Positions 49,795 to 64,000 of a stretch of 64,000 nucleotides of DNA are shown in pieces. The stretch comes from Gammaproteobacteria bacterium. Its GTDB lineage: Bacteria; Pseudomonadota; Gammaproteobacteria; Eutrophobiales; Eutrophobiaceae. Location of the stretch: assembly GCA_026710545.1 (NCBI GenBank), contig JAPOQU010000045.1, positions 59,016-123,015 of the forward strand, written 5' to 3'. The notes under the pieces were generated by a model. The model was not told the DNA's origin, did not search any database, and was given only the letters and a program-made list of their open reading frames with translations. The translations under genes and the position numbers were made by a program. How positions within the stretch are numbered: position 1 is the first letter of the stretch; each line of letters opens with the position of its first letter.

Positions 49795-50979
49795 ATGTTG
49801 AACTCCCATGAGATATTCGGAGCGGCTATGCTGAAGGCCTTTGATGCTGCCACCGCACCGGTCAACGAGGCCGGGATACTGCCCCCGATCCTGTACACCT
49901 CGCCTGAATTTCACAGCTTCGAGCGCGACACGATTTTTACCAAGGACTGGATGTGTGTCGGACGCACCTCGCAGGTCCCGGACCCGGGCGACTGGTACCA
50001 GTTTACCCTGCTGGATGAACCCCTGCTGGTCGTACGCGACCAGGATGGGCAGGTTCGCGTTCTCTCCGCAGTCTGCCAGCATCGCGGCATGGTTGTCGCC
50101 GAAGGCAGCGGCAACTGTAATAAGTTTCTCTGTCCTTACCATCACTGGAGTTACGCCCTGGATGGAAGATTGCTCGCGATGCCGGAAATGGACCAGGCAG
50201 TCGAGTTCGACAAGGCGCGCTACAACCTGCCGTCGTTGCCGGCGGAGATCTGGAACGGGTTTATTTTTTGCCGCTTTACGGAACAGGGCGATGCGCTCGC
50301 GCCGACGCTGGAGCAACTCACGGAGTTGCTGTCTAACTTCGACCTGGATAACTGTTACACAAAAATCGGCGACACCTACGAAGACCTGCCGTGGAACTGG
50401 AAGGTGATGCTGGAAAACTTCAACGACGGTTATCACGCCAACCGCCTGCATGTCGGTATCGGCGATCATGTGCCGTCTGAAAACGCCCGTTTTCTGGAAT
50501 GGGACGATGAGCAGAATCATGTCTCCCGGCTCAATTATTTCACCCACATCGACGGCGGTTTCAACGCCACCAGGAAAACCCTGTTACCGGTGTTTGAAAA
50601 ACTGAGCGATGACGAGCGGCACCGCGCCATGTTCTGCCTGGTGCCCCCCAGCCTCGGCCTCGCCGTGACGCCCGACACCATTACCTATTTCATCGTCAAT
50701 CCCAAGGCCGCGGAAGCGATTGATATCCACATCGGTTACTGTATGGACCCGAGGGCGCCGAACGAACCCTTGTTCGATCTGCTGTTCAGGGACATGGAAG
50801 CCGGCGTGAACGATTTTAACGTCCAGGATATCCATGCGGATACGATGGTGCAGAAGGGTCTGCGCTCACGCTTCGGCCCCCATGGCCGTTATTCCTGGCA
50901 GGAGGAGACACTGCAGCAGTTTAATCGCTGGCTGGTGAAACGCTATCGCGCCAACTGGCCGTCAACTCAGATGGACTGA
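49795..50979 (+). CDS. Rieske aromatic-ring-hydroxylating oxygenase, alpha subunit
   Basis: This 394-residue protein has an N-terminal Rieske [2Fe-2S] domain with C94-x-H96 (VCQHRGM) and C113-x2-H116 (FLCPYHHWSY). The mononuclear iron site is in the C-terminal domain, LENFNDGYHANRLH, with an Asp bridging the two centres. It belongs to the broad ring-hydroxylating dioxygenase family; demethylase or hydroxylase activity is equally possible. No beta subunit, ferredoxin or reductase gene is adjacent; the CDGSH protein upstream may supply electrons. RidA and 2OG-oxygenase genes follow at short spacing, so this looks like a four-gene catabolic or tailoring operon. Confidence 0.92.
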   Translation: MLNSHEIFGAAMLKAFDAATAPVNEAGILPPILYTSPEFHSFERDTIFTKDWMCVGRTSQVPDPGDWYQFTLLDEPLLVVRDQDGQVRVLSAVCQHRGMVVAEGSGNCNKFLCPYHHWSYALDGRLLAMPEMDQAVEFDKARYNLPSLPAEIWNGFIFCRFTEQGDALAPTLEQLTELLSNFDLDNCYTKIGDTYEDLPWNWKVMLENFNDGYHANRLHVGIGDHVPSENARFLEWDDEQNHVSRLNYFTHIDGGFNATRKTLLPVFEKLSDDERHRAMFCLVPPSLGLAVTPDTITYFIVNPKAAEAIDIHIGYCMDPRAPNEPLFDLLFRDMEAGVNDFNVQDIHADTMVQKGLRSRFGPHGRYSWQEETLQQFNRWLVKRYRANWPSTQMD

Positions 50980-50997
50980 ACAGACAATAGAACGAAT

Positions 50998-51402
50998 ATG
51001 CCAAATAAATTTATCCACCCCGAGGGTATTCTGCCGGATGTAGTACACGGCTACACCAGTGTCGTTGTCAGCACCGGGAAAAAGATGGTGCATTGCGCCG
51101 GCCAGGTGCCGATGGACGCCGACCTGAACCTGGTCGGCGACACGCTCGCCGAGCAAATGGATCAATCATTCAAAGCCATCGGTATTGCGCTTGCCGCGGG
51201 CGGCGCGACCCCGGCTGATGTGGTGCGCGGCCGGATTTACATCGTCGATTATAACGCCGGTATGGTGCAGACGGTCATCGAAAAAACCGCGGCCTTCTAC
51301 GCGCCGGGTGAACCGCCGCCAAGCACGTTGATCGGCGTACAATCGCTGGCGTTGCCGGGGATCATGGTCGAGATCGAAGTGACGGCGGTACTCGATGATT
51401 AA
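50998..51402 (+). CDS. RidA-family protein
   Basis: This 134-residue protein of the YjgF/YER057c/UK114 family shows HCAGQVPMDADLNLVGDTLA, QMDQSFKAIGIALAAGGATP and LALPGIMVEIEVTA, the usual trimer-core segments. Classical RidA enzymes hydrolyse reactive enamines or imines using an arginine near the sheet (VVRGRIYIVD here). In oxygenase operons, RidA-like proteins often process unstable intermediates. It starts 18 bases after the Rieske gene. Confidence 0.9.
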   Translation: MPNKFIHPEGILPDVVHGYTSVVVSTGKKMVHCAGQVPMDADLNLVGDTLAEQMDQSFKAIGIALAAGGATPADVVRGRIYIVDYNAGMVQTVIEKTAAFYAPGEPPPSTLIGVQSLALPGIMVEIEVTAVLDD

Positions 51403-51425
51403 ACCCTGACCTGCTCCGGCGCACT

Positions 51426-52412
51426 GTGAGCGGCAGAACTGAAATTCCGGTTATCGATGTCTCGGGCTGGCTTGCCGGGGATAGCGCTGCGCAGAATACA
51501 CCGGCCGAGATAGACTCTATCTGCCGGGACCATGGTTTCTTCGTGATAACGGGGCACGGTATCGAGGCGCAGTTGATCAGCGACGTGCGCGCCGCGTGCA
51601 TCTCGTTTTTTTCGCTGCCCGAGGAGGTAAAAGCCGCTTATCAACCGCCACCCGGGGAATATGTCGGTTACCTGCGCCAGGAGGCGCTTTCCTACAGCCG
51701 CGGTGACGCCAGTCCCCCGGATCTCAAGGAGACCTATACCTGTAACCGGATGGACGTACCGGCGGATGACCCTTACTTCCACACTCCGGAGTCACGGCCC
51801 TTCTTCAGCCCCAACGTCTGGCCTGGTGAGGTAGCCGGGTTCTCCGCGGCGTGGATACAATACTATCGCGCCGCGGATGCGCTCGCCGTGCGGATGATGG
51901 GACTGATGGCCGTTGCGCTTGGCCTGCCGCAGGACCAGTTCGACCCTTACGTGGACAAGAGCATCTCCTCGATGCGCGCCCTGTACTATCCCGCGCTCGG
52001 TAAGGAACCGCTCCCCGGTCAGTTCAGGGCAGGGGCCCATTCGGATTTCGGCAGTTTCACCATGCTTATGACCGACGCTGCGCCCGGCGGCCTCGAGGTG
52101 CTGCATCGGAACGGCAGTTGGATGAAGGTGCCCCACGTGCCTGGCGCGCTGGTGGTGAACATCGGCGATCTCATGGCCCAGTGGACCAACGACCGCTGGG
52201 TGTCGACCATGCACCGGGTCGTGACGCCGCCGGTCGGGCCCGGCACCTCGAGGCTGTCCATCGTCTACTTCCACCAGCCCAACTACGATGCCCTCATAGA
52301 GACGCTGCCGACCTGCTGTGACGCCGGTAACCCGTCCCGTTACGACCCGGTCACCTCGGGACAGCACCTGATGCGCAAAGTCCAGTTGCAACGCGAGATG
52401 GCGTCGTCCTGA
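51426..52412 (+). CDS. 2OG-Fe(II) oxygenase, isopenicillin N synthase family
   Basis: This 328-residue protein has the non-haem diiron-free facial triad H205-x-D207 (GAHSDFGSFT) and H263 (STMHRVV), and the R-x-S motif SRLSIVYF for 2-oxoglutarate. N-terminal DIOX_N segment: HGFFVITGHGI. The family oxidises many small molecules. It is the last gene of the set 49026-52412 and converges with the PQQ dehydrogenase gene. Substrate unknown. Confidence 0.92.
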   Translation: MSGRTEIPVIDVSGWLAGDSAAQNTPAEIDSICRDHGFFVITGHGIEAQLISDVRAACISFFSLPEEVKAAYQPPPGEYVGYLRQEALSYSRGDASPPDLKETYTCNRMDVPADDPYFHTPESRPFFSPNVWPGEVAGFSAAWIQYYRAADALAVRMMGLMAVALGLPQDQFDPYVDKSISSMRALYYPALGKEPLPGQFRAGAHSDFGSFTMLMTDAAPGGLEVLHRNGSWMKVPHVPGALVVNIGDLMAQWTNDRWVSTMHRVVTPPVGPGTSRLSIVYFHQPNYDALIETLPTCCDAGNPSRYDPVTSGQHLMRKVQLQREMASS

Positions 52413-52472
52413 GGCGCTCTGGAGAAGGGGAAATACTTCGAGACTGTGGCTCCCGTCCGGGTGGTCGCCGCC

Positions 52473-54464
52473 TCAATGCGTTACATAGGAGTAAATCGTC
52501 AGCATTTCTTCCCGGCTGAAGGTATCTCCCCAGCCCGGCATAGTGCCCTTGCCGTCAACAATGGCGGACACGAAGCGCTGCTCAGCATTTTCCGGAAACT
52601 GCCTCAGGTCATAGTTGGCGCCGCTTGCCATGCGGTCCACACCATGACAGTGTGCGCAGTACTGGTGATAAAGCGATTTTCCTGCCGCGGCGGTTGCCGG
52701 CATCAGGTTGGTGTCAATCTCTGCCGGCTTGAGCGGCGGCAGGATCGTTTTTGCAACCGGCGTCCTGGCAATGGCGCCATCATTCAGGGCGAATGCCCAG
52801 ATGGAGTTGCCCGGATTGATATTCTTTAAATTCGGGTCCCCGGAGACGGCTGCATACAGGCCGCCGATGCCGCTGGCGACGGCTACATATTGTTTACCGT
52901 CGACCTGGTAGGTTACCGGTGGCGCAACGATACCGGAGCCGGTTCGGTATTCCCACAACTTCTCACCCGTCCCGGCGTGGAGGGCATATAACTCACCGGT
53001 CTGGGCCCCGGAAAAGACAAGGTCGCCGGCGGTGACCAGGGTGCCGCCATTCATGGCTGTTTCAGTGGGAAAGCTCCATTTTATGCGTCCGCTTAACGGG
53101 TCGACGGCCTTCAACTCGCCTTTGGGAACCGTTGCATCGACAAATTCAAAATCAATGGAAAAGAACAGCGCCCCTTCCTTGAATTCCTGGTCCACCGGCG
53201 TGACAATCCAGCCGGTATTGATCGCGTTGACATAAGCCAGGCCGGTGCGTTTGCTGTAGGACATGGGCGCCAGGTTTTTGCCGCCGAATGCGGTCGGCCA
53301 CACTTCGGTGGGTTCGCCCGTTGTCAGCATGTGCTCGACGGATCCGGAGCGTTCAGGCCGCCCCGTTACGGCATCGATCCCCGCGGTCCACGTGGTTTTT
53401 TCGACGAATGCGTTTGCCGTGATAAATTCGCCATTGGTCCGGTCCAGCACGTAAAAGAAGCCGTTGCGGTTTGCCTGGATCAGGACCTTGCGCAGTTCGT
53501 CCCCGATTTTCAGCTCGGTGAGCAGCGGTTCGTTGTTGCCGTCGTAATCGCCGGTATCGTTGGGTGTGAATTGAAAATACCACACCATTTCACCGGTACG
53601 CGGTTTAATCGCCAGCATACTGTTGGTATACAGGTTGTCGCCCGCCCGGCGGTGGGCGCTCCAGGGGGCCGGGTTGCCAACGCCCCAGTACACCAGGTCA
53701 AGCTCGGCGTCGTAAGAGCCTGTCAGCCAGGTGCCGCCGCCGCCCCGCTTCCAGTCGTCACCCTCCCAGGTCTCACTGCCCGGTTCTCCGGGTTTGGGAA
53801 TGGTATGCAACCGCCACAGGTGCTCTCCCGTGTCCGGATCCCAGCCGTCGATAAACCCGGGCGCGGCAAATTCAGATCCGCCAATGCCGGTGATAAGGAC
53901 GCCATTGGCCACCAACGGCGCGCTTGTCATGGAGTAACTGGGCGAGATATCGTGTACTTCCTTTTCCCAGAGTATCGCGCCGTTGTCCGGGTTAAAAACG
54001 ATAATGCGGTTGTCGATATTCGTCCGGTACAGTTTGCCGTCGTGGTAGGCCAGGCCGCGGTTGCCGTAGCCGCAGCAATTCAATGCGTTGTCTGCATATT
54101 CGGTTACCGTTTTCCAGATCTGCCGCCCGCTCGCCGCATCGATTGCGTGGGTCGAATTGTGCGTTGTCACGTACATGACATTGCCGATAACCAGCGGTTG
54201 TGTCTGCAGGCCGATTTTCTCCCCCAGGGCAAGTGTCCAGACCGGCGTTAGGTTGTTTATGTTGGCTGTATTGATCTGTGCAAGATCGGAAGAGCGGTTC
54301 AGGTCCTGCGTTAATCCGTAGAAGGGCACGCCGCGGTCTTCAGACTGCCCCGGAACGGCGTTGTCTTTGCCGGACTCGACACTGGCCGGCGTGATTGTGG
54401 GCGCATCGTCGGCGCATGCCGCAAGAAATAGTAATACCGGTACCAGGATGTTTCGCAGGGTCAT
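52473..54464 (-). CDS. PQQ-dependent alcohol dehydrogenase (quinohaemoprotein), lipoprotein
   Basis: This 663-residue enzyme has eight-bladed propeller repeats and a C-terminal cytochrome c domain with CAHCH. The N-terminal lipobox LFLAAC predicts lipidation at C17. The PQQ site shows adjacent cysteines C130-C131 (NCCGYGNRG), E198 in GSEFAAPG, N263 in GVGNPAPW and D306 in TGDYDGNNE. D308, two residues after the catalytic Asp, is a position filled by Asp in lanthanide-type dehydrogenases and usually not in calcium types. Start ATG 54464 has AAGG upstream; the frame extends to a GTG at 54488. It lies 20 bases downstream of the sterol methyltransferase gene and may oxidise a sterol-related or other alcohol. 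Confidence 0.9.
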   Translation of the reverse strand: MTLRNILVPVLLFLAACADDAPTITPASVESGKDNAVPGQSEDRGVPFYGLTQDLNRSSDLAQINTANINNLTPVWTLALGEKIGLQTQPLVIGNVMYVTTHNSTHAIDAASGRQIWKTVTEYADNALNCCGYGNRGLAYHDGKLYRTNIDNRIIVFNPDNGAILWEKEVHDISPSYSMTSAPLVANGVLITGIGGSEFAAPGFIDGWDPDTGEHLWRLHTIPKPGEPGSETWEGDDWKRGGGGTWLTGSYDAELDLVYWGVGNPAPWSAHRRAGDNLYTNSMLAIKPRTGEMVWYFQFTPNDTGDYDGNNEPLLTELKIGDELRKVLIQANRNGFFYVLDRTNGEFITANAFVEKTTWTAGIDAVTGRPERSGSVEHMLTTGEPTEVWPTAFGGKNLAPMSYSKRTGLAYVNAINTGWIVTPVDQEFKEGALFFSIDFEFVDATVPKGELKAVDPLSGRIKWSFPTETAMNGGTLVTAGDLVFSGAQTGELYALHAGTGEKLWEYRTGSGIVAPPVTYQVDGKQYVAVASGIGGLYAAVSGDPNLKNINPGNSIWAFALNDGAIARTPVAKTILPPLKPAEIDTNLMPATAAAGKSLYHQYCAHCHGVDRMASGANYDLRQFPENAEQRFVSAIVDGKGTMPGWGDTFSREEMLTIYSYVTH

Positions 54465-54484
54465 GAGAGTTAACCTTGATGGGG

Positions 54485-55510
54485 TCACTCCGCCTTACGC
54501 GCCAGCGTAAAATACATGGGCGTGAAGATACCCAGTTTGCCGCCTGCCGAGAGTCCGTCCGCGCCCCGGTTCAGAATGGTTGCGACCTGGTGCGAACCCC
54601 TGGGCGCCAGCCCGATGCGTTCTAACAGCCACAGCATCTTCGCCGTGACCTGCCGCCCGACCGGCGTCTTCAGGAAATCCAGGGGCGTGAACTTCTGTGC
54701 CCCCACCGCCTTGTGCCAGGGCACACCGGTATCGATGGTCTCCGCCAGGTCATCGTTCACCAGGATTTCAAAGCCGGCTTCTTCCAGCGCGCGGTCAATG
54801 TCCACGGGCGCGCTGATATCCGGCAGCGCATTGCCGATCATGATCTCGCGCTTGATATGTTGATGATCCGCATTGGCGGGGTCAAACATTGAGGTGACGC
54901 ACCAGTCATAGGAGGCGAACAGGCCCCCGGGCTTGAGGATTCGGTGCGCCTCGGCAAAAGCCTGTGCCTTGCTGGTTGCGTGCGGCATGGACTCGATGGC
55001 ATACGCCCGGTCAAAGCTCGCATCCGGCGCATCGATGTGCATGTAGTCACTGACGAGAAAGTCGGCAGGCGGCTCAAGGCCCGCATTCGCAGCCCTGGCG
55101 CGCGCTTTTTCAACCTGTGCATGGTTGTTGTTAAGCCCGACGACAGCGGCGCCCGTGTGCCGTGCGATCAGGACCAGGGGCCCGCCGATACCGCAACCGA
55201 TATCCAGCACCCGCATACCCGGCTCTATGTCCAGCCTGTCTGCCAGGCAGGTCTCGTGGAGGCGGAGCGACTCCTTGAACGGTTTGTCCGGGTAAAGCGG
55301 CGCGAAGTGGAACGACTCCCCCCAGCCGTACTCATAGAATGCCGTAACCAGGTCATAGTAATCCCGGGTTAACCCCATGTAGTCGAACGTCCCGTCCTTC
55401 AGTTTTTTCCGTTGCCCGGGAGAGAACCGCTCGACATACCCCCTGGAGCGCTTCGCCACATGCTGCCAACTGACCGTACCTGCCAGGTTCTTAATCAAAC
55501 GCGTTACCAT
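54485..55510 (-). CDS. Sterol C24-methyltransferase-like enzyme (ERG6/SMT family)
   Basis: This 341-residue SAM-dependent methyltransferase carries the sterol methyltransferase signature FYEYGWGESFHFAPLYP (58-74), the SAM motif VLDIGCGIGGPL (101-112) and YAIESMPHATSK (about 175), in the order seen in yeast ERG6 and plant SMT. These enzymes methylate the delta-24 side chain of sterols. The C-terminal TPLDFLKTPVGRQVTAKMLW region also resembles the family. It is preceded by a 102-base gap after the cyclase gene, where a separate promoter could lie, and is followed closely by the PQQ dehydrogenase. Alternative: a related methyltransferase acting on another isoprenoid, but the genomic context favours sterols. 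Confidence 0.85.
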   Translation of the reverse strand: MVTRLIKNLAGTVSWQHVAKRSRGYVERFSPGQRKKLKDGTFDYMGLTRDYYDLVTAFYEYGWGESFHFAPLYPDKPFKESLRLHETCLADRLDIEPGMRVLDIGCGIGGPLVLIARHTGAAVVGLNNNHAQVEKARARAANAGLEPPADFLVSDYMHIDAPDASFDRAYAIESMPHATSKAQAFAEAHRILKPGGLFASYDWCVTSMFDPANADHQHIKREIMIGNALPDISAPVDIDRALEEAGFEILVNDDLAETIDTGVPWHKAVGAQKFTPLDFLKTPVGRQVTAKMLWLLERIGLAPRGSHQVATILNRGADGLSAGGKLGIFTPMYFTLARKAE

Positions 55511-55612
55511 GAATATACTCTCAATACCGGTAATCCATTATAGAATTTCTCGTCCTGTTGTGCACTGACGTCATACCGTTTTTCTCTTCATGCCACTCCC
55601 TGGATTGAGCCT

Positions 55613-58600
55613 CTACGAACCTGCTGCTTCAGCCAGTTTCACATCGGCGGAGGGACCGGGGGCTGTCAAATCCACCCGGGCCAGCCGCCGTTGCTCGTAG
55701 AGACCGAGTGCGTGCAGGGGAAAATACTGCCGGTACAGGACGTAGTCCAGGAGCGCCGTGCGAAAGAAGACCCCGGCCATGTCCTGTCTGGGCCAGGTCC
55801 CGTCCGCGTTCTGGTTGTTGAGCAGGTACCGGGCGCCTCGTGAAATCGCGCTCCAGTTCGGATCGCTTGCCTCCAGCAGCGCAATCAATGCCCACGCGGT
55901 CTGGATGACCTGGCTTTCCTCGTGTGCGACGTAGCGCCCGGTCGTGCAACCGCTGTGGTGCTCGCCCCATCCCCCGTCCCTGCGCTGGCGCTCCAGCAGC
56001 CACTGGCAGGCCAGGCGCAGCGCCGGATCACCGGGCGGGGCCCCGGCGGCAAGCAGGCCCCTGATCCCGAAAAAGGTGCCGTAGATAAACTGAACGCCCC
56101 ACACGCCGCGCCAGGAACCGTCGATCGCCTGGGTCCGGCGCAGCCAGGCGTCAGCCCGTGAAATGGCGCTCGTCAGCGCCTGGTCCGTGGTTTGCGGGAA
56201 GCGCTCCCTGCAGGCGGCGAACGCCGCAAGACAGGACGCGGTACATTCCACATAGGAATGTTCGGTCATCGAGTCGCCGAACATCTCGGCCGGGTTCAAC
56301 CACTCGAGACCTGTCACGGTGCGGCGCGCCTCGTAGCTGCCGAAACCGCCGTCGCGGTTCTGGCCGCGCAACATGAAGCGGACCGCATCGCCGAGCACGG
56401 TTGCGTCCGCGGCCTCGCCCCGGGCCGCAATAATTCCCAGCACCGCTTCCGCCGTACAGTCGGTCACCGGCCAGCCGTGCCAGCCACCGGCAAAACACCA
56501 GCCGCCTTTGGGGTCGGTACGGTAAGCCTCGCGAAACCCTTCGAAGCTGGACCGGATTTGTTGTTCGTACAGGAAATCGGCCCCATTCCTGAGGGACGCG
56601 TTTTCCGCTTCGCCGGACCCGGGCACTGCCGCCAGCGCCTGCAGGGCGAAGCCGGTATCCCAGGAGGCGCTTCTCGCGCCGGTGACACGGGCTCCCTGTT
56701 CCTCGTCTTCCCAGAGCCAGCCATCCAGTTGCGAGAGCGCCTGTCCGGCGTCGGCGTCGTCCGGATCACGCAGCCACAGGGCAAGGATATTGAGCAGGCC
56801 GCTGACCGGAGAGATGCTCGTGTGGCTGGTTGTCTGCAGTTCCCATTTGATGAGCCGGTTTATCTCTTCCGTGCAGCGGGCGCGCAGGCGTTTGTTGTGA
56901 ATCCGATCGAAGAGACGCGCGAACTCGTAGCCGGCCCGGAGCCATACGCTGGGTCGCGCATACAGGTCGGCGTCCCGCAACTGATGGCGTGTGGCGGAAA
57001 AATCGATGTTGGCAAACCCCTGGGGATACAACTCTTCCCGTAACGAGGAGACCAGGGGTGTGACCGGCGCCGCGTACCGGCGCGGGTAAATCGACGCCAT
57101 CGCCATGTAAATGAGCCGGGTATGGCAGTACCAGTTCGAGGGGTGCAACGGGATCCGGCGCGGCAGGCTCCAGAGTTCCGGCAGCACCGCGTGTACCCCG
57201 CGCCAGTCGTAGAGATTGAGCAGCGCCAGCCAGAACTTGCCCCAGCTCGGGATACCGGTAACCCCCTCTGTCTGCAGGAAGCGCCGGGCCGGTTCGATCA
57301 ACGGATCATCCCGCTCGATACCAAGTAATCGCGCCGCGACATAAACCAGGGTGGTGACAAACAGGTGGGGGGGCGAGTGATCGTGTAAACCCCATGAGCC
57401 TCCTGCCAGGCGGGTCCGTTCGAAAAAACGCAGTACACTCCTGCGCCGGCCGGGTTCGAGCGGCCGCCCGATAATGTGGTGCAGCAGTACGTATTGCGCG
57501 GTGAGCATGGGACACCAGACCATCTCGCCTTCCCAGCCGCCGTCCTCATCCTGAAGATTTATCAGGCGCTCGGTCGCGCTGAGCAATGCCGGACCCGCAT
57601 CGGCTGGCGCAATCTCCCTCGGGCGGACCAGCCGGGGGGCGCGGACTTTCGCCGGCATGGAGATGAGAAAAATACCGGCCAGGCTGTCCCAGACTCGCCC
57701 GTCCATTTCCACGCCCGCGTTTCTCGCCTTGCCCAGCCGCCGGACGCTGCGCAGGAGCCACCCGCAACGAACCGCCAGCGCACGCATGATGTCGCGCGAC
57801 CGGCGCCAGGCGAGCAGGTCGCAGGAGCGCGGTATCTGCCCGGCAACCGTGCGCGCAACCGTCGTGAAAAAAGCCAGACCCAGGCGGATTATCGAGGTGT
57901 CTTCGCAGGCGAGTAAACGGATTGTCTGATCGCGGAACCCGGAACTTGCCCGGGCGCTCCGGTAGATCGTATGCCTGACCGCCACCGCCTCGGCCCGGTA
58001 ATCGGCAAAGCACTCATACAGCCCCATGGCGAGGAACGCCGGCGCGCGGGTCGCCCGGAAGCGCCTGCTGGTGAAATCGTGAAAATCCTCGTTGCCGGCC
58101 AGTGCAAGCGCATCGCCGAAACCGAAGGTCATCCCCATCGCCGTCATGGGATGGTAGTGCCCGGCGGCATCGCCGATAAGCACCCGGTGCGGGTTCCCGT
58201 AGGTGACGTGCGGCCTCAGCTTGTTGGCCGCGACGTGGAATTCCCCTGCACGCAGCGCTTCGATGAAGGCAGGCCTGAGTGTTTCCGGCAACAGGCCGGT
58301 GTACGAGTCCGACAGAAAACCGATCCGGTCCCGGGGGGTCGTGCGGTCCAGCGGGACATCGGCGATAATGCGGACGCAATCCGTTCCCAGGCGGTATATG
58401 AGGATTGGACCCGGCCCGCCAAGCAGCACGTGGCCATAACCCTCCAGCGGCAAGCTCACCCCTTTTACGATGACCCCCACCGTCTGCGAGCAGATCATCG
58501 GGTTGGTCGATAAACCCAGCGATTTACGCACGATCGAGGCCTGCCCGTCGGCGCCTACAATGCGCGTGGCAGTCACGGTTTCAGTGGCGCCGTTACGGGT

Positions 58601-59020
58601 AAACGTGATGCGCCCGTCTTCGACCGCACGTACCCGAGCGTGCAGCATAAAGTCGATATTCGGCTCGTTGCTGACGGCTTCACGCAGACTTGAGACGAGC
58701 AGGTTGTGCTCGCACGCCAACCCGCGCGACCCTTCGCTGTAAGGAAACTTTATCGGCTCCGAACCGTCTTCAGGGAATACCGCAAATCCTTTACCGGTGG
58801 GGTAATTTTGCTGTGTATTGAACTCGACGCCGACAGCGCGCAGCATCCGCACGGCAGGCGGGTGCAGCCATTCGCCCGCCAGTCGCAGGGATGCCTGGGG
58901 GTTTGCCTCGAGCAGAGCTACCCGGGCGCCTTTGCGTGCGTAAGCAAGTGCGCACAGGCTGCCCACCGGACCCGCGCCGACGATGGCTGCGTCACGGCAT
59001 AGTGGAGCGACGCCGTTCAC
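55613..59020 (-). CDS. Fusion of squalene epoxidase-like flavoprotein and oxidosqualene cyclase
   Basis: A single uninterrupted frame of about 1135 residues carries two enzymes. Residues 10-420: a class A flavin monooxygenase with GAGPVG (15-20), GADGQ (156-160) and GDAAGHYHPMTAMGMTFGFG (283-302), as in squalene epoxidases. Residues about 480-1115: a triterpene cyclase with repeated QW motifs (for example QNRDGGFGSYE, QRRDGGWGE). The acid motif is D854-C-T-A-E858, the oxidosqualene cyclase form; the DxDD of squalene-hopene cyclases is absent. Residues -6 and -2 from the catalytic Asp are H848 and V852, and C926 (YVECT) supports the acid. GTG 59020 overlaps the CYP51 stop (GTGA); a TTG 15 codons upstream is an alternative. 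Expected product: a protosterol such as lanosterol, parkeol or cycloartenol. Confidence 0.92.
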   Translation of the reverse strand: MNGVAPLCRDAAIVGAGPVGSLCALAYARKGARVALLEANPQASLRLAGEWLHPPAVRMLRAVGVEFNTQQNYPTGKGFAVFPEDGSEPIKFPYSEGSRGLACEHNLLVSSLREAVSNEPNIDFMLHARVRAVEDGRITFTRNGATETVTATRIVGADGQASIVRKSLGLSTNPMICSQTVGVIVKGVSLPLEGYGHVLLGGPGPILIYRLGTDCVRIIADVPLDRTTPRDRIGFLSDSYTGLLPETLRPAFIEALRAGEFHVAANKLRPHVTYGNPHRVLIGDAAGHYHPMTAMGMTFGFGDALALAGNEDFHDFTSRRFRATRAPAFLAMGLYECFADYRAEAVAVRHTIYRSARASSGFRDQTIRLLACEDTSIIRLGLAFFTTVARTVAGQIPRSCDLLAWRRSRDIMRALAVRCGWLLRSVRRLGKARNAGVEMDGRVWDSLAGIFLISMPAKVRAPRLVRPREIAPADAGPALLSATERLINLQDEDGGWEGEMVWCPMLTAQYVLLHHIIGRPLEPGRRRSVLRFFERTRLAGGSWGLHDHSPPHLFVTTLVYVAARLLGIERDDPLIEPARRFLQTEGVTGIPSWGKFWLALLNLYDWRGVHAVLPELWSLPRRIPLHPSNWYCHTRLIYMAMASIYPRRYAAPVTPLVSSLREELYPQGFANIDFSATRHQLRDADLYARPSVWLRAGYEFARLFDRIHNKRLRARCTEEINRLIKWELQTTSHTSISPVSGLLNILALWLRDPDDADAGQALSQLDGWLWEDEEQGARVTGARSASWDTGFALQALAAVPGSGEAENASLRNGADFLYEQQIRSSFEGFREAYRTDPKGGWCFAGGWHGWPVTDCTAEAVLGIIAARGEAADATVLGDAVRFMLRGQNRDGGFGSYEARRTVTGLEWLNPAEMFGDSMTEHSYVECTASCLAAFAACRERFPQTTDQALTSAISRADAWLRRTQAIDGSWRGVWGVQFIYGTFFGIRGLLAAGAPPGDPALRLACQWLLERQRRDGGWGEHHSGCTTGRYVAHEESQVIQTAWALIALLEASDPNWSAISRGARYLLNNQNADGTWPRQDMAGVFFRTALLDYVLYRQYFPLHALGLYEQRRLARVDLTAPGPSADVKLAEAAGS

Positions 59021-60426
59021 CGGAACACACTTGCCTGTATGCGGCGCCGGTAGCGGAGCCGGCAAGGCTCCTGCGGTCCGGTCACCCAGCTGCCGTAATT
59101 CGGCGCAGGGAATGCCGTGTCGAGATGGAAATCGAAGCGATCGAGCAGCACAGACCAGATTGCTTTCAGTTGCATGATGGCGAAATTCTTACCCATGCAC
59201 CGGTGTTTGCCGCCGCCGAAACCGATCAGTGCGTAGTGGTGTTGCTTGTCTTCGCTGGCGGGCGCAGCAAAACGCTGCGGATAGAACCGGTCCGGGTCGT
59301 AAAATAAGTGCGGCAGCCGGTGCGAGACTGCCGGCGATACCAGTGCCAGGGTGCCTGCAGCGATGGTATATCCCCGGTATTCCACGTCTTTGAGCACCTT
59401 GCGAATCAGCATTATCAGCGGCGGGTGCAGCCGTTCGTTCTCACGCACGGCGTGTTCCAGCGCCACCTGCCGCTTCAGGCTCGCCAGGCCCATGGTTCCT
59501 TCCTCGCGGTAGACGTCCTGCATTTCGTCTCTTATCAGCGCCAGGTATGATGATTCTCTCGCGAGTTCCAGGCCGGTCCAGGTTGCCAGCACCGCACTCG
59601 TGTGCTGGCCCGCGAACAACACCGTCAGCAGGATCCCGGTAATCTCATCGTCGCTCAAGGCGCGGCCATCCTTGTAACGGGCGTCCATGAGCGTCTGCAT
59701 GAAATCGTCGGGACGGGCCCCGGCGCGCCGCCGTTCCGCCATGACCCGGCTGAAAATCCCGGCCACTTTTTGCCGGGCCCGGTCGCGGCTTCGATGCGCT
59801 GCGACAGGAAGCCTGGGGAGAAAAAATCCCAGGGTGTTGATGCCGTTTTGCAGGTTGTGATAAGCATCGGCAAAACCGGAGTCCACCTGCTCCCGGACTT
59901 CCTCCCCGATGAGGCAGCGGCTGGCGATGTTGACGGTGAGTTCGTTCATCGCCGTCGGCAGGTCGATTTCTCCTTCCTCGCCAAGAGAGTCGGCGAAGCG
60001 GTCCGTCTCATCGAACATGATGCGGGCGAACCTGTTCATCGCGGATTCGCGCAGCGCCGGGTACAGGAACTCAAGCTGCTCGGCCATGATCGCCGGGGAG
60101 ACGTCGTATGCCACGCCGCGTCCGAAGACGGGCACCGTGAACTGGTAGACGGCTTTGGCGTTCAGCTGATCCTCGGGAGCCCTGAAGAAAAAGTCGTGGG
60201 CCTCGGGTCCGGTGAACAGGACAAAATTGCGGGGACCGATACGGAACCGGAGCAGTTCGCCCTGTTCACACTGGCCGCGGTTCAACATCGAGACCGGATC
60301 CTTCAGGAAACCCGGCAGGTGGCCGATTAACGGCCACCCGCCCCTGATCAATGGAACGGCTGTTGCCGCCCGCGGCGGGGGCTGCACCGGATGCAGGCTT
60401 GCCACACTGTCGGATCGTTGTGACAT
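59017..60426 (-). CDS. cyp51: Cytochrome P450, sterol 14-alpha-demethylase (CYP51)
   Basis: This 469-residue P450 shows the CYP51 hallmarks: YQFTVPVFGRGVAYD (94-108, the BC-loop signature), FAGQHTSA (271-278, the I-helix), E329-x-x-R332 and the haem loop FGGGKHRCMG with C410. CYP51 removes the 14-alpha methyl group of lanosterol-like sterols in three oxidations. There is no N-terminal membrane anchor, as in bacterial CYP51 such as that of Methylococcus; a ferredoxin partner must come from elsewhere, since no ferredoxin domain is fused. It overlaps the cyclase start by four bases and follows the delta-14 reductase gene, which would reduce its product. Confidence 0.93.
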   Translation of the reverse strand: MSQRSDSVASLHPVQPPPRAATAVPLIRGGWPLIGHLPGFLKDPVSMLNRGQCEQGELLRFRIGPRNFVLFTGPEAHDFFFRAPEDQLNAKAVYQFTVPVFGRGVAYDVSPAIMAEQLEFLYPALRESAMNRFARIMFDETDRFADSLGEEGEIDLPTAMNELTVNIASRCLIGEEVREQVDSGFADAYHNLQNGINTLGFFLPRLPVAAHRSRDRARQKVAGIFSRVMAERRRAGARPDDFMQTLMDARYKDGRALSDDEITGILLTVLFAGQHTSAVLATWTGLELARESSYLALIRDEMQDVYREEGTMGLASLKRQVALEHAVRENERLHPPLIMLIRKVLKDVEYRGYTIAAGTLALVSPAVSHRLPHLFYDPDRFYPQRFAAPASEDKQHHYALIGFGGGKHRCMGKNFAIMQLKAIWSVLLDRFDFHLDTAFPAPNYGSWVTGPQEPCRLRYRRRIQASVFR

Positions 60427-60432
60427 TCCGGG

Positions 60433-61533
60433 CTAGTACACATACGGCAGCATTGAATACCGCACCCGCTGCGTGTAGCGTCCCCACAGTTCGCCGTACT
60501 TGGCGCGGCAGCGGCGATCGTCACGTTTTGAGCGATGCCACAACAGGAGCGCCAGCCACGCGGGTAACAGGTAAGGCACCCAGGATCCGAACCCAGTGGT
60601 CAGGGCGAACGCGAGGTAGATGCAGATCTCGCCGGTATAGTTGAGATGCCGTCCGATCCCCCAGAATCCGGAGACCAGCAGGCGCCCGTCCAGCGACCGG
60701 GCGGGTTGTCCCCAGATCGAGACGCCGGGATTGCGCTTGAAGCGGTGTTTTTGCTCGTTGGCGCCGCGGAACAGCCAGAAGCCAATGATGAACAACATGA
60801 CGATCGCCGCCGCGGCGATTAGAGACAGCGGCTCCTGTGCATGGACCAGCCACCAGCCGGCGAGACAATAGAAAAACGGCACCAGCACGTAGTCCCCCCA
60901 GATCAGCATCCAGCCGAAGCGCTCGCTGACCATGTCCCAGGTGTGGGTCATGCCGTATTCGAACTGGAAGTAGTTGAGCACGTAACAGAAGGTGAAGACC
61001 TGGTACAGCGCCATTGCCAGGGTCAGCCCGCCGTAGGTCTCGTACTGCACTACGGCGAACGAAGCGTTGAACAGCGCCAGGCCGATGAGGGACGGGCGGT
61101 AGCTGAAGAGCTTCAAATCCACCCCGAGCACGGTTGGATTGAACTCCACGCCATAGAAGAAACCCGGCCGGATTCCCGGCGCTGAGTCCCGGGCCAGGGC
61201 GGACCGGTAATACAGCCACACGGAAAGTGCGAATGCAAGTACGTTGGCCGCCACGAACAAGGCGGCAAAGTGGGTATACAACGTGGAAAGTGAGAACCAG
61301 CCAAAGACCTGGGCGAGACCTGCCGCAATCACGGTCGCCAGGAACAGGGCGAGGCCGTTGAGGCTGTATTCGTGTGGTGTTCCCTCCAGGTCCGTCCCGG
61401 CAATCCGGCGTCCGGGCAGGAGCATGGAACCCAGGAACAACCCGCCGGTAAACACCAGCAGCATGGCCGCCGCCTTGAGCAGGGCGGCGCCGGACAGCGC
61501 GGACAACAGGAACTGCGGCTCAGGCGCCGGCAT
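60433..61533 (-). CDS. Sterol delta-14 reductase-like (ERG4/ERG24 family)
   Basis: This 366-residue polytopic membrane protein of the ERG4/ERG24 family has many hydrophobic helices. Conserved landmarks are YSLNGLALFLATV, GVEFNPTVLGVDLKLF, FGWMLIWGDYVLVPFFYCLA, GFWGIGRHLNYTGEICIYLA and the C-terminal RDDRRCRAKYGELWGRYTQR, which forms the NADPH-binding end. Next to CYP51, the natural role is reduction of the C14 double bond made by 14-demethylation; delta-7 or delta-24(28) reductases of the same family are alternatives. It overlaps the Rieske gene by 14 bases and is followed by CYP51 after six. Confidence 0.9.
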   Translation of the reverse strand: MPAPEPQFLLSALSGAALLKAAAMLLVFTGGLFLGSMLLPGRRIAGTDLEGTPHEYSLNGLALFLATVIAAGLAQVFGWFSLSTLYTHFAALFVAANVLAFALSVWLYYRSALARDSAPGIRPGFFYGVEFNPTVLGVDLKLFSYRPSLIGLALFNASFAVVQYETYGGLTLAMALYQVFTFCYVLNYFQFEYGMTHTWDMVSERFGWMLIWGDYVLVPFFYCLAGWWLVHAQEPLSLIAAAAIVMLFIIGFWLFRGANEQKHRFKRNPGVSIWGQPARSLDGRLLVSGFWGIGRHLNYTGEICIYLAFALTTGFGSWVPYLLPAWLALLLWHRSKRDDRRCRAKYGELWGRYTQRVRYSMLPYVY

Positions 61534-62605
61534 CGCCGGTCCCGTTTGCGCGCGCCAGGTGCTCCCGCCACTTGCGCACGGTCACATCCTGAAACGCCTT
61601 GACGACCGGGTTGAACTCGAAGGGAGGCGCGTCCCAGTGCCTCTCGTACCCCTGCTGCTCCGCTTCGACCGCAACGCCGTCCTGGCTGAGTAACGGGCCG
61701 ATGAGCATGCGGTTCGAAATCTTCAAAACCGTGGTCATGGCGAACCGGGGGATCCGCACCGGCAGAACGGGGATTTTCAGCGACTTGAAGTAGAACAGGA
61801 AGAACGCCCGGGTGGTGCGCTCATCGATGGGCAGCACAAACAGCCAGTGTTTTATCGCATCATCGGTGTTCGACCACTGGTAGGGGTACTGGTAGCAAAG
61901 CTCCATGTAGTTGGTGTCGATGCGGTTGTGGTCGACGAACAGTCTGGAGACGGGCCCGCGCCCGACCTGCGTATCGTAGGCGAGATGCACATTGTCACCG
62001 ACGGTCTCGCAGCGGGTGAGGGTGGCATCGTCAAAGGGGCGGTAGCGGCGGTGCAGGTGGGCGTGGGTGAAGTCGCTGACGTTGTCGATCACCATCGAGT
62101 GGTGCGCCGACCAGGTGAAGCTCAGCGGTACACAGGCCCACCGGGATGAGCCTTCGATCTCCGGGATATCCGGGATTTCGCGCTGCCGCGCCCGCTCCGG
62201 ATCCCCGGGGAACAACCAGACCAGGCCGTAGCGGACCTGCACGGGATAGGTTTTCAGCGCGAGGTTCTTAAGGCCTTGCCCGGACCGGCCGTAGGGGACC
62301 CCGTTTTCATCATACTCCCAGCCATGGTAGGCGCACACCAGCCGGCAACCCTGCACATCGCCCAGGGAAAGTTTGAGCTGCCGGTGCGCACAGCGGTTAT
62401 CCATGGCGTGAAACGAGCCGTCTTTCGCCCGGTACAGCGCGATGGAACGCTTCCAGAAAACGATCTCGACCACGGTCTCCGGCTTGACCCGGCGCACTTC
62501 CTCGACCGCGTACCAGTAATCCGGGTCCATGCCCGCGGCCCGCGCCTGCTGGCGCAGGGTGCGGGCTTCATCGAAGCCGGGTGGCGCACATGACTGCGGA
62601 TTCAT
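61520..62605 (-). CDS. sdmA: Rieske oxygenase, sterol C4-demethylase-like (SdmA)
   Basis: This 361-residue Rieske oxygenase binds its cluster through C72-x-H74 (NRCAHRQ) and C91-x2-H94 (LVCAYHGWEYD). The mononuclear iron motif DNVSDFTHAHLHRR is near residue 175. In Methylococcus, the Rieske enzyme SdmA oxidises a C4 methyl group of sterols, and its dehydrogenase partner SdmB completes removal. Here the two genes are adjacent (one base apart) inside a sterol operon, which supports this assignment over a generic ring hydroxylase. About residue 260-310 a hydrophobic stretch may contact the membrane. Confidence 0.87.
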   Translation of the reverse strand: MNPQSCAPPGFDEARTLRQQARAAGMDPDYWYAVEEVRRVKPETVVEIVFWKRSIALYRAKDGSFHAMDNRCAHRQLKLSLGDVQGCRLVCAYHGWEYDENGVPYGRSGQGLKNLALKTYPVQVRYGLVWLFPGDPERARQREIPDIPEIEGSSRWACVPLSFTWSAHHSMVIDNVSDFTHAHLHRRYRPFDDATLTRCETVGDNVHLAYDTQVGRGPVSRLFVDHNRIDTNYMELCYQYPYQWSNTDDAIKHWLFVLPIDERTTRAFFLFYFKSLKIPVLPVRIPRFAMTTVLKISNRMLIGPLLSQDGVAVEAEQQGYERHWDAPPFEFNPVVKAFQDVTVRKWREHLARANGTGDAGA

Positions 62606-62606
62606 A

Positions 62607-63746
62607 TCAGGCCCCTTCGGTAGATACCTGGATACCCTGGCCCGGATTGACTGTTTCCGGCTGACTCACGGCGTCAACGTACGGGCGTTTCGCGCGCGGG
62701 TTGCTGATCGCGTTGCGCTGGTAGTGGAACGCATAGGCCTCATGCACCGCGGCGCGGATACTGGTGGGCTGGTAGCCCAGCTCCCGTTTCGCCTTGTCGA
62801 TGTTGGCGTGGCGGCACTTTTTCAACAAGCGGATGGCGCCGGGGGTGAAACGCTGGTTGAAACCCGGGTGAAACCGGCTCAGGTAAAAGCTCGCCACTTC
62901 CGAGAAGGCCAGCATAACAGGGATCGGCATCCGCCTGCGCGGTCGCGGGATGCCCGAAACCTCCTCGTACAGGTCCAGGATCTCGGAAATGGTTTTGTAC
63001 TCGCTGCTGAAGATGTACTTTTCACCCGGGCGCCCATGGCGCATGCACAACAGGTGTCCCTGGACGATGTCCCGCGCCGCGACGAACTCAAAACCGCCAT
63101 CCACGTAAGCACGGAGCTTGCCATTGGTGTAGTCGCACAAGGTCCTGCCCAGACGCGAGGGAAAAAAATCGGCGCTCCCGATCACGGCACAACAGGTGGC
63201 GACAATGACATCCTGCCCCATCGCCGCGGCGCGCCAGCACTCATGCTCGACCAGCGTCTTGCTGCGCTCGTAGGGCATCGTGCGTTCCATGGGGTAGAAC
63301 TGCATGGTCTCGTCGCTGGGCGCCGACGGGTCATCCAGGTCATAACCGACCGCGCTGAATGAGCCCGTCACCACCACCCGGCCGGCCTCCGCCTCCCGCG
63401 CAGCCTGCAGCACGTTGCGGGTACCGAGGACGTTGCATTCGAACACTTCGCGGCGATGGGCGTGGTTGCCTTCGATGGTTGAGATCTTGGCCGCTACGTG
63501 ATAAACGCCCTGGCAGCCTTCCAGTGCGCGCCGGGTGGCATCCAAATCCCGGATGTCCGCAAACGCGCGTTCGACTTCGAGTCCTGCCAATGCTTCGTTA
63601 TTGTCCTCGTGTCTCAGCAATACCCGGACGCGGATGCCGTCGTCGAGCAGCCTGCGCACGAGGTTGGCGCCTACGTGCCCGGCAGAACCGGTGACCAGAA
63701 CAGGGGGCTCCGATAAGCCGGCGGATGTGCCTGATTCTGAAGTCAT
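62607..63746 (-). CDS. sdmB: NAD(P)-dependent 3-beta-hydroxysteroid dehydrogenase-like (SdmB)
   Basis: This 379-residue extended SDR of the 3-beta-HSD/sterol decarboxylase type shows the Rossmann motif VTGSAGHVGANLVRRLL, VTGSFSAVGYD and the active-site Y-x-x-x-K in MPYERSKTLVEHE. In Methylococcus, SdmB pairs with a Rieske oxygenase to remove a C4 methyl group: it oxidises the 3-hydroxyl and supports decarboxylation. The C-terminal half (ISEILDLYEEVSGIPRP, RFTPGAIRLLKKCRHANIDK) is like NSDHL-type relatives. It is the first gene of the sterol operon, and a promoter must lie in the 63747-63870 interval. Confidence 0.87.
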   Translation of the reverse strand: MTSESGTSAGLSEPPVLVTGSAGHVGANLVRRLLDDGIRVRVLLRHEDNNEALAGLEVERAFADIRDLDATRRALEGCQGVYHVAAKISTIEGNHAHRREVFECNVLGTRNVLQAAREAEAGRVVVTGSFSAVGYDLDDPSAPSDETMQFYPMERTMPYERSKTLVEHECWRAAAMGQDVIVATCCAVIGSADFFPSRLGRTLCDYTNGKLRAYVDGGFEFVAARDIVQGHLLCMRHGRPGEKYIFSSEYKTISEILDLYEEVSGIPRPRRRMPIPVMLAFSEVASFYLSRFHPGFNQRFTPGAIRLLKKCRHANIDKAKRELGYQPTSIRAAVHEAYAFHYQRNAISNPRAKRPYVDAVSQPETVNPGQGIQVSTEGA

Positions 63747-63873
63747 TCAGGCAATGGGCGCGACTGCGCCTGTAGTGTTGGTTTCAAGTGTGACCTCCCT
63801 AGTACTCTTTCAACTTAATATTGCCATGTTCAGCGGGTCAGGAAGCGGTTGAGCGCAAGGCACGCCGCGCCGG

Positions 63874-63993
63874 GAATGGCGCGTCCTTGCCAAGCGGCGT
63901 AACGCTGCGGGCGACCGCTTCCCGGCCCGCCCGCAGGGAGCCACACAGCGACGCCAATACGGCGTTGCAGCCCTTGACAAGGGCGCGCCATTC
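63874..63993. repeat. Nested inverted repeat at the window end
   Basis: Outer 21-base arms at 63874-63894 and 63973-63993 pair at 19 positions (GAATGGCGCG and CGCGCCATTC at the base). Inner arms CTGCGGGCG (63905-63913) and CGCCCGCAG (63928-63936) are perfect. The element lies upstream of the sterol operon. It could be a REP-type repeat or the end of a mobile element continuing past the window. Confidence 0.6.
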
Positions 63994-64000
63994 TCTGCGG

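Follow-up and report, generated by a model that had tools for sequence, protein, structure and literature searches.

A six-gene block for predicted sterol biosynthesis, with a C24-methyltransferase of another lineage, in a gammaproteobacterium likely to live in a sponge

We analyzed a window of 64,000 nucleotides (the whole stretch of DNA considered here) on the 123015-base contig JAPOQU010000045.1 of a 4.4 Mb gammaproteobacterial assembly (GCA_026710545.1, Eutrophobiaceae), and found at 54485-63746 six adjacent open reading frames (ORFs), all on the minus strand, with predicted products that are SdmB-like and SdmA-like proteins, an ERG24-like sterol reductase, CYP51, a squalene epoxidase/oxidosqualene cyclase (OSC) fusion and a sterol methyltransferase (SMT) (Table 1). 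We are fairly confident that this block is a five-gene cluster of the sponge-symbiont type, as in the msb locus (PMC7074536) and the clusters of steroid genes (CSGs; PMC9531527), joined to an SMT of another lineage and likely acquired horizontally, and that the sterol predicted from it would be demethylated at C4 and C14 and alkylated at C24. The kind of gene set is already published from sponge symbionts; particular to the window are the SMT lineage, the insertion site and the placement of the five genes in a tree. A sponge host is likely, as the same two articles and the titles of some related loci suggest. An earlier note, made from the window sequence alone, had proposed six consecutive minus-strand genes, these enzyme assignments and a pathway of cyclization, C14 and C4 demethylation and C24 methylation. 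Reading of the ORFs confirmed coordinates and strand, and family models, solved-structure matches and conserved motifs support all six assignments and, as a prediction, the pathway. Handles used below are L for loci, G for family genomes, C for contigs and P for proteins, G000 being the window's own genome.

Squalene epoxidase and OSC are encoded in one polypeptide, with the domains of both matched in a single ORF. For the 1150-amino-acid (aa) ORF, the cyclase model TIGR03463 gave 736 bits (E 4e-221; curated cut-off 851) and the broader OSC model TIGR01787 gave 508 bits, above its cut-off of 323. The fusion was also considered as a hopene cyclase and rejected: the hopene cyclase model scored 269 bits (E 7e-80; cut-off 431) vs. 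the 736 bits of the OSC model, and a separate hopene cyclase is encoded on C15. Of the two halves, one matched the solved structure of lanosterol synthase (1w6k, E 1e-133) and the other that of squalene monooxygenase (6c6n, E 9e-25). A structure model of the 1135-aa fusion, built from an alignment of 30 fusions (pLDDT 80.9, pTM 0.80), contains both folds, divided by a low-confidence stretch at residues 459-469. By target length, the TM-score was 0.80 for the epoxidase half against human squalene epoxidase 6c6r and 0.81 for the cyclase half against human OSC 1w6k (35% identity). The motif DCTAE lies at residues 854-858, V852 aligns with human V453, and none of the 30 aligned fusions departs from V852, D854, C855, T856 or E858. 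This motif, the valine at the human 453 position and the higher scores of the OSC models over the squalene-hopene cyclase (SHC) model are the sequence features of a lanosterol-type OSC. H848 aligns with human C449, and because a histidine at this position is, as we take it, a plant-like feature, other cyclization products are possible. MsbE of the msb locus was called a lanosterol cyclase on the basis of "a key valine" (PMC7074536). By family-model and solved-structure comparison, rather than by tree, the cyclase and the P450 of the block resemble sterol families much more closely than SHCs or other P450s; on this basis the outcome named in the earlier note as a refutation, a placement outside the sterol families, did not occur.

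The four genes upstream of the fusion were assigned in the same way. The SdmB model NF052578 matched the first protein with 298.5 bits (E 9e-89), above the 228 bits of HpnA (cut-off 368), and the SdmA model NF052579 matched the second with 386 bits (E 1e-115); both lie below the curated 600-bit cut-offs, that is, they are homologues rather than filed equivalogs of the methanotroph proteins. At E ≤0.001 the SdmA model has 39 hits in the window's own genome, a sign of many Rieske oxygenases, and the second best of them is on C71 with 180 bits. The reductase belongs to the ERG4/ERG24 family (PF01222, 246 bits; delta-14 sterol reductase 4quv, E 1e-67) and gave no NCBIfam match; the best solved match and the gene context indicate that it probably acts on delta-14 and not on delta-7 or delta-24. 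The closest solved homologues of the P450 are the CYP51 chains 7jj1, which we take to be the Methylococcus enzyme, and 6mcw (E 1e-100), and the stretches that we assume to be the CYP51 substrate-site and haem motifs are present. P450 is the sole Pfam match of this protein, which has no ferredoxin domain of the type reported in the CYP51 clade linked to 8,14-Bsr; this is in keeping with a canonical delta-14 reductase in the block. Methylococcus capsulatus has SdmA, SdmB and CYP51 homologues too, but there CYP51 is fused or co-localized with a ferredoxin, and 8,14-Bsr leads to a delta-8(14) sterol (PMC13277303; PMC10942540); the six genes of the window include neither a ferredoxin nor 8,14-Bsr, and have the canonical ERG24-like reductase instead.

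The last gene encodes a member of the SMT family by its Sterol_MT_C match (80 bits, E 1e-22; cut-off 21.7) and by the stretches YEYGWGESFHFA and D-GCGIGGP, which the plant SMT P0027 has as well and whose roles as SMT motifs we presume, and C24 methylation by this enzyme is likely. The core proteins are 59-86% identical to those of related loci; the SMT is 35-50% identical, except for an 87% copy in the congener G014. A protein search with the window SMT returned, among the matches listed, 20 entries at 69-94% identity, followed by a drop to ∼50%. We built an SMT tree of 92 rows, taking every SMT ORF of the loci (49) and, from the 120 listed proteins (of 1886 found), 43. The window SMT, the 20 close entries and the copy in G014 form a 22-row clade in it (SH-aLRT 100, stem 1.08). 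This clade, called 'a' here, holds no other locus-derived row, and every other operon-adjacent SMT lies elsewhere in the tree. The last gene of the block is thus of another enzyme lineage than in the related clusters examined. In G014 the 'a' copy stands alone, between a D-Ala-D-Ala carboxypeptidase gene region and an OEP-HlyD-RND export set, which is followed by a second SMT. The matching region of G000 is syntenic at 82-86% on both sides and has a different 497-aa ORF in place of the 'a' SMT. Similarity between the window and the stand-alone G014 gene reaches 32 bases upstream of the start (to 55542) and includes a TATAAT. Most simply read, the 'a' SMT has two alternative locations within the genus, of which the end of the sterol operon is one, and it may have moved in either direction.

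It is quite unlikely, in our estimate, that the protein only adjoins the operon and either does not function as a sterol methyltransferase or has some other lipid as its substrate. Its clade is separate and long-stemmed, the gene has a promoter-like sequence of its own, and 20 of 24 metagenomic SMTs were active on desmosterol, so that some homologues are inactive on this substrate (PMC10070321); on the other side, Sterol_MT_C is matched above its cut-off, and the shared stretches are nearly identical to those of the plant SMT. Elsewhere in the genus, at L151:160-7319 (G000 contig C55) and L154:7887-14950 (G014), outer-membrane efflux (OEP), HlyD and RND genes stand immediately before an SMT and form a candidate sterol export system.

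The genes of the block are tightly packed: the spacing is +1 base for sdmB-sdmA, -14 for sdmA-erg24, +6 for erg24-cyp51, -4 for cyp51-fusion and +102 for fusion-SMT, in agreement with the earlier note. The most likely start codon of the fusion is GTG 59020, which overlaps the cyp51 stop by 4 bases; the ORF list starts it at TTG 59065. One transcription unit had been proposed for all six genes. Co-transcription of the five core genes is likely, and the joining of the SMT is the weakest point, given the 102-base gap, the promoter-like match in it at 55564-55537 (two such matches in the region vs. 1.7 expected by chance) and the similarity to the stand-alone G014 gene, which extends no farther than this match.

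The earlier note took clusters of this kind to be rare, which is not supported. In one scan of one-per-species genomes, 251 stretches were found to encode a fusion relative, and PMC7074536 and PMC9531527 describe clusters like this one. Of the 251, 80 were taken as loci; all 80 match both fusion halves, and their titles name nine phyla, with four loci lacking a phylum. All five core genes were called in 57 loci, which comprise 53 of the 80, three from congeners and the window itself, and 29 of 86 loci were excluded for missing at least one complete core gene, through contig ends or true absence (L151 and L154 had been fetched for their SMT only). The order SdmB-SdmA-ERG24-CYP51-cyclase on one strand is kept in 56 of the 57, the exception being L023, or in 55 of 56 distinct loci when L017 and L156, which are the same contig (19001/19001 bases), are counted once. 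An SMT lies on the same strand in 10 of the 57 and on the opposite strand in 25, and none was called in 22, including L046, whose fusion ORF itself contains the SMT. In several loci (e.g., L024-L026, L033, L051 and L052) the fusion is present with none of the other four genes called within the locus.

The block resembles the published clusters in the five-gene order on one strand, the bifunctional epoxidase/cyclase and the SMT at the 3' end. The msb locus (msbA-F), from a gammaproteobacterial symbiont of Melophlus sarasinorum, encodes the same gene types, namely an NAD(P) oxidoreductase, a Rieske oxygenase, a sterol reductase, a C30 (C14) demethylase, a bifunctional epoxidase/cyclase (msbE) and an S-adenosylmethionine-dependent sterol methyltransferase (msbF), lettered in the gene order of the window; the likeness is one of gene types (PMC7074536). 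CSGs were reported in 115 of 537 metagenome-assembled genomes of Ircinia symbionts, from 11 classes and 10 phyla, and horizontal transfer was inferred for them; they contain DFR in the place of SdmB, a hypothetical gene in the place of SdmA, ERG24, CYP51 and LSS (PMC9531527). The LSS alignment has 3765 positions, a length that would agree with gene fusion, and the word "fusion" is absent from the main text; SMT or FDFT1, the usual 3' flank of CSGs and not one of their core genes, mostly lies on the opposite strand, whereas the window SMT is on the same strand (PMC9531527). Brown et al., who assayed bacterial SMTs, describe clusters in which an SMT gene accompanies sdmA, sdmB and further sterol genes, and their methods name "fused SMO/OSC homologs"; the resemblance to the window is in gene content (PMC10070321).

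Of 53 genomes of the family, 4 carry the fusion, and these belong to the window's genus, which has 7 genomes in the set. None of the 46 from other genera has it, and matches in the genomes without the fusion cover one half only, at ≤42% identity. In the fusion tree (83 rows; L042, whose fusion is in two ORF pieces, was omitted) the window groups with L006, L041, L045 and L072 (SH-aLRT 100), and its congeners form a separate clade (100). By path distance the window operon is nearer to L006 and to Binatota and Nitrospirota rows than to its own congeners. When a genus clade was enforced on the five-gene tree, with 31 of the 57 loci as rows, the cost was 79.3 log-likelihood units and the constraint was rejected (approximately unbiased (AU) test, p 0.0165). 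The neighborhoods also differ. In G012, G014 and G016 the operon adjoins a luciferase-like monooxygenase gene and the genes that follow it, and this luciferase-like block is found in G000 on C15, with three proteins 82-94% identical and the operon absent there. The congener G013 is 84% identical in DNA to the window over 50302-54480, to five bases past the SMT stop, and continues with the end of an amidohydrolase-like gene (named by eye). G013 shows this site without the block, and the operon is at two sites within one genus.

A number of points weigh against these conclusions. On the enzyme side, the curated cut-offs of TIGR03463 and of the SdmA and SdmB models were not reached; a redox partner for CYP51 or SdmA is absent from the six genes; and a search of the own genome for ERG2 gave 0 matches, with the control silent too. 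On the side of transfer, all the trees are quick ones, and L041, L072 and L045, which join the window, have an unusual letter make-up. For the fusion alone, the enforced genus clade cost 36.5 log-likelihood units and was not rejected (AU p 0.204). Phylum labels change 9 times on the fusion tree vs. a minimum of 8 (L012, L019, L024 and L049, having no phylum, were uncounted), and therefore few transfers between phyla are forced by it. G013 is 88% complete in 760 contigs, which makes the absence of the operon elsewhere in it unsure and a loss as possible as a gain. In G000 the gene corresponding to the G013 amidohydrolase (89% identical) lies on C54 with other genes after it, and the contig of the window ends in a repeat, which makes the left junction of the block uncertain. 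This repeat, at 63800-64000, is partly palindromic and has at least 54 matches in the own genome (counting itself and both strands; 40 of 63 candidates scored); a number of the matches sit at contig ends. The contig stops at window base 64000, 254 bases from sdmB. The operon may be ancestral in the genus, moved within the genome and lost in some congeners, with the tree signal a matter of rate or model error. The fusion-alone test and the presence of the operon in 4 of 7 genomes of the genus speak for such a history, and the five-gene test, the 46 fusion-free genomes outside the genus and the two different operon neighborhoods speak against it; we regard it as possible, though less likely than not.

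The pathway predicted for the block would start from squalene, supplied by a squalene-synthase-like gene elsewhere in the genome (C3, near HpnN; 126 bits, below the cut-off of 287). The fused protein would epoxidize and cyclize it to lanosterol rather than cycloartenol, CYP51 would take off the C14 methyl, and the ERG24-like reductase would saturate delta-14. SdmA would oxidize a C4 methyl and SdmB would complete its removal, for one or both methyls. The SdmAB pairs of different bacteria remove one or both, one system needing a third protein, and because of this difference the number of C4 methyls lost cannot be read from the sequence. The SMT would add one or more carbons at C24, early or late, as long as the delta-24 bond is still present. 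We suggest tentatively, as something short of an even chance, that side-chain methylation comes early: lanosterol would be methylated as it leaves the epoxidase/cyclase, with the SMT coupled to it, and sponge symbionts would make C24-alkylated sterols in an order unlike the assayed desmosterol route. The slot after the cyclase would have been filled independently by the common SMT clade, by the 'a' clade and by an SMT fusion (L046). Early methylation is favored because epoxidase, cyclase and SMT are joined in one polypeptide, a single ORF of ∼1500 aa, in L046:9929-14503 (plus strand; Acidobacteriota by record), P0121 and P0122. L046 is 99% identical to P0122 (which is on a 4.8 Mb contig) over 1509 aa and 88% identical to P0121 over 1463 columns; the third hit of the search that gave these two proteins is a fungal SMT. 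The SMT part of L046 is 100% identical to that of P0121 vs. 96% to that of P0122, the closer protein overall, as if recombined. We met no mention of an epoxidase-cyclase-SMT fusion in the open-licence literature, in searches that were not aimed at the fusion alone.

A different end product may be considered. Instead of a membrane sterol, the cluster might make a tailored steroid, or the aglycone of a sterol that is glycosylated and secreted, as in sarasinosides, with SdmAB and the SMT as tailoring enzymes. Sarasinosides were proposed as the msb product from the same gene types (PMC7074536); SMTs of the genus lie beside the OEP-HlyD-RND export system, and a GPP34-P450 protein and a KshA-like Rieske protein are nearby in G000. 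There is, however, no glycosyltransferase among the six genes (glycosyl loci elsewhere were not searched for), and we consider this explanation unlikely. The genome likely makes hopanoids as well, since it has HpnN, a hopene cyclase above cut-off (C15), the squalene-synthase-like gene and an HpnD-like gene (below cut-off). A BstA-like sterol transporter was considered, and none is among the six genes; the transporter on C3 scores as HpnN (914 bits, over its cut-off; BstA 174 bits, cut-off 1400), and the genome was not searched as a whole for Bst proteins. C24-alkylated steranes serve as biomarkers of eukaryotes or sponges, and, as argued in PMC10070321, which bacteria and SMTs make C24-alkylated sterols bears on the oldest evidence of animals. 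To this the window adds a compact six-gene set with an SMT that stands apart in the tree from those of the other clusters, its relatives point to an order of steps that can be tested, and the congener comparison places the cluster at two sites in one genus.

Table 1. Features of the sterol gene block and its flanks (window positions)
Feature	Position	Strand	Basis
sdmB-like NAD(P)-dependent dehydrogenase, 379 aa, first gene	62607..63746	-	NF052578 SdmB; Epimerase and 3Beta_HSD Pfam
sdmA-like Rieske oxygenase, 361 aa	61520..62605	-	NF052579 SdmA; Rieske and VanA_C
ERG24-like sterol reductase, probably delta-14, 366 aa	60433..61533	-	PF01222; 4quv
CYP51 sterol 14-alpha-demethylase, 469 aa	59017..60426	-	CYP51 chains 7jj1/6mcw; P450 Pfam
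Squalene epoxidase/oxidosqualene cyclase fusion, 1135 aa from GTG 59020	55613..59020	-	SE, FAD_binding_3, SQHop_cyclase_N and SQHop_cyclase_C Pfam
Fusion, epoxidase part, residues 1-450	57671..59020	-	fold match to human squalene epoxidase 6c6r
Fusion, cyclase part, residues 476-1119	55664..57595	-	fold match to human OSC 1w6k; DCTAE 854-858, V852
102-base gap between fusion and SMT	55511..55612	-	promoter-like match 55564-55537
Sterol C24-methyltransferase, 'a' clade, 341 aa	54485..55510	-	Sterol_MT_C; SMT tree
Right end of block	54480..54484	.	congener G013 similarity to window stops at 54480
Dispersed repeat, ∼200 bases, contig end, upstream of sdmB	63800..64000	.	self-matches in own genome
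Pyrroloquinoline quinone (PQQ) dehydrogenase with cytochrome c, flank gene	52473..54464 (or to 54488)	-	Pfam/NCBIfam models

The PQQ dehydrogenase gene lies on the same strand, ∼20 bases or less after the SMT. As a seventh pathway gene it was rejected: such a gene (≥250 bits) adjoins the operon only in the window, in 0 of the 80 relatives' loci, and G013 has it without the operon. Next to it, on the plus strand at 49795-52412, are another Rieske ring-hydroxylating oxygenase and a 2-oxoglutarate-Fe(II) oxygenase. Neighbor genes of the related operons were counted with L017 (duplicate) and five genus loci omitted. A fusion of GPP34 (Golgi phosphoprotein 3) and cytochrome P450 is encoded near the fusion gene in 12 of the 80 loci (e.g., L073:16449-18518) and also in the own genome (L151:7279-9333, minus strand); the domains were checked in the L073 and L151 proteins, and the rest were assigned by clustering. 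Beside the operon we found an amine-oxidase-like flavoprotein in 15 of the 80 loci, in four phyla (e.g., L023:12412-13848; also L156:16229-17611), and a ∼240-aa protein in 14, in three phyla (e.g., L080:13471-14214), one of which was scanned and gave no Pfam match. In 9 of the 80 loci (e.g., L009:2241-4535) the operon adjoins the gene of an MMPL protein that matches the sterol-sensing domain with 30.5 bits (cut-off 22.3).

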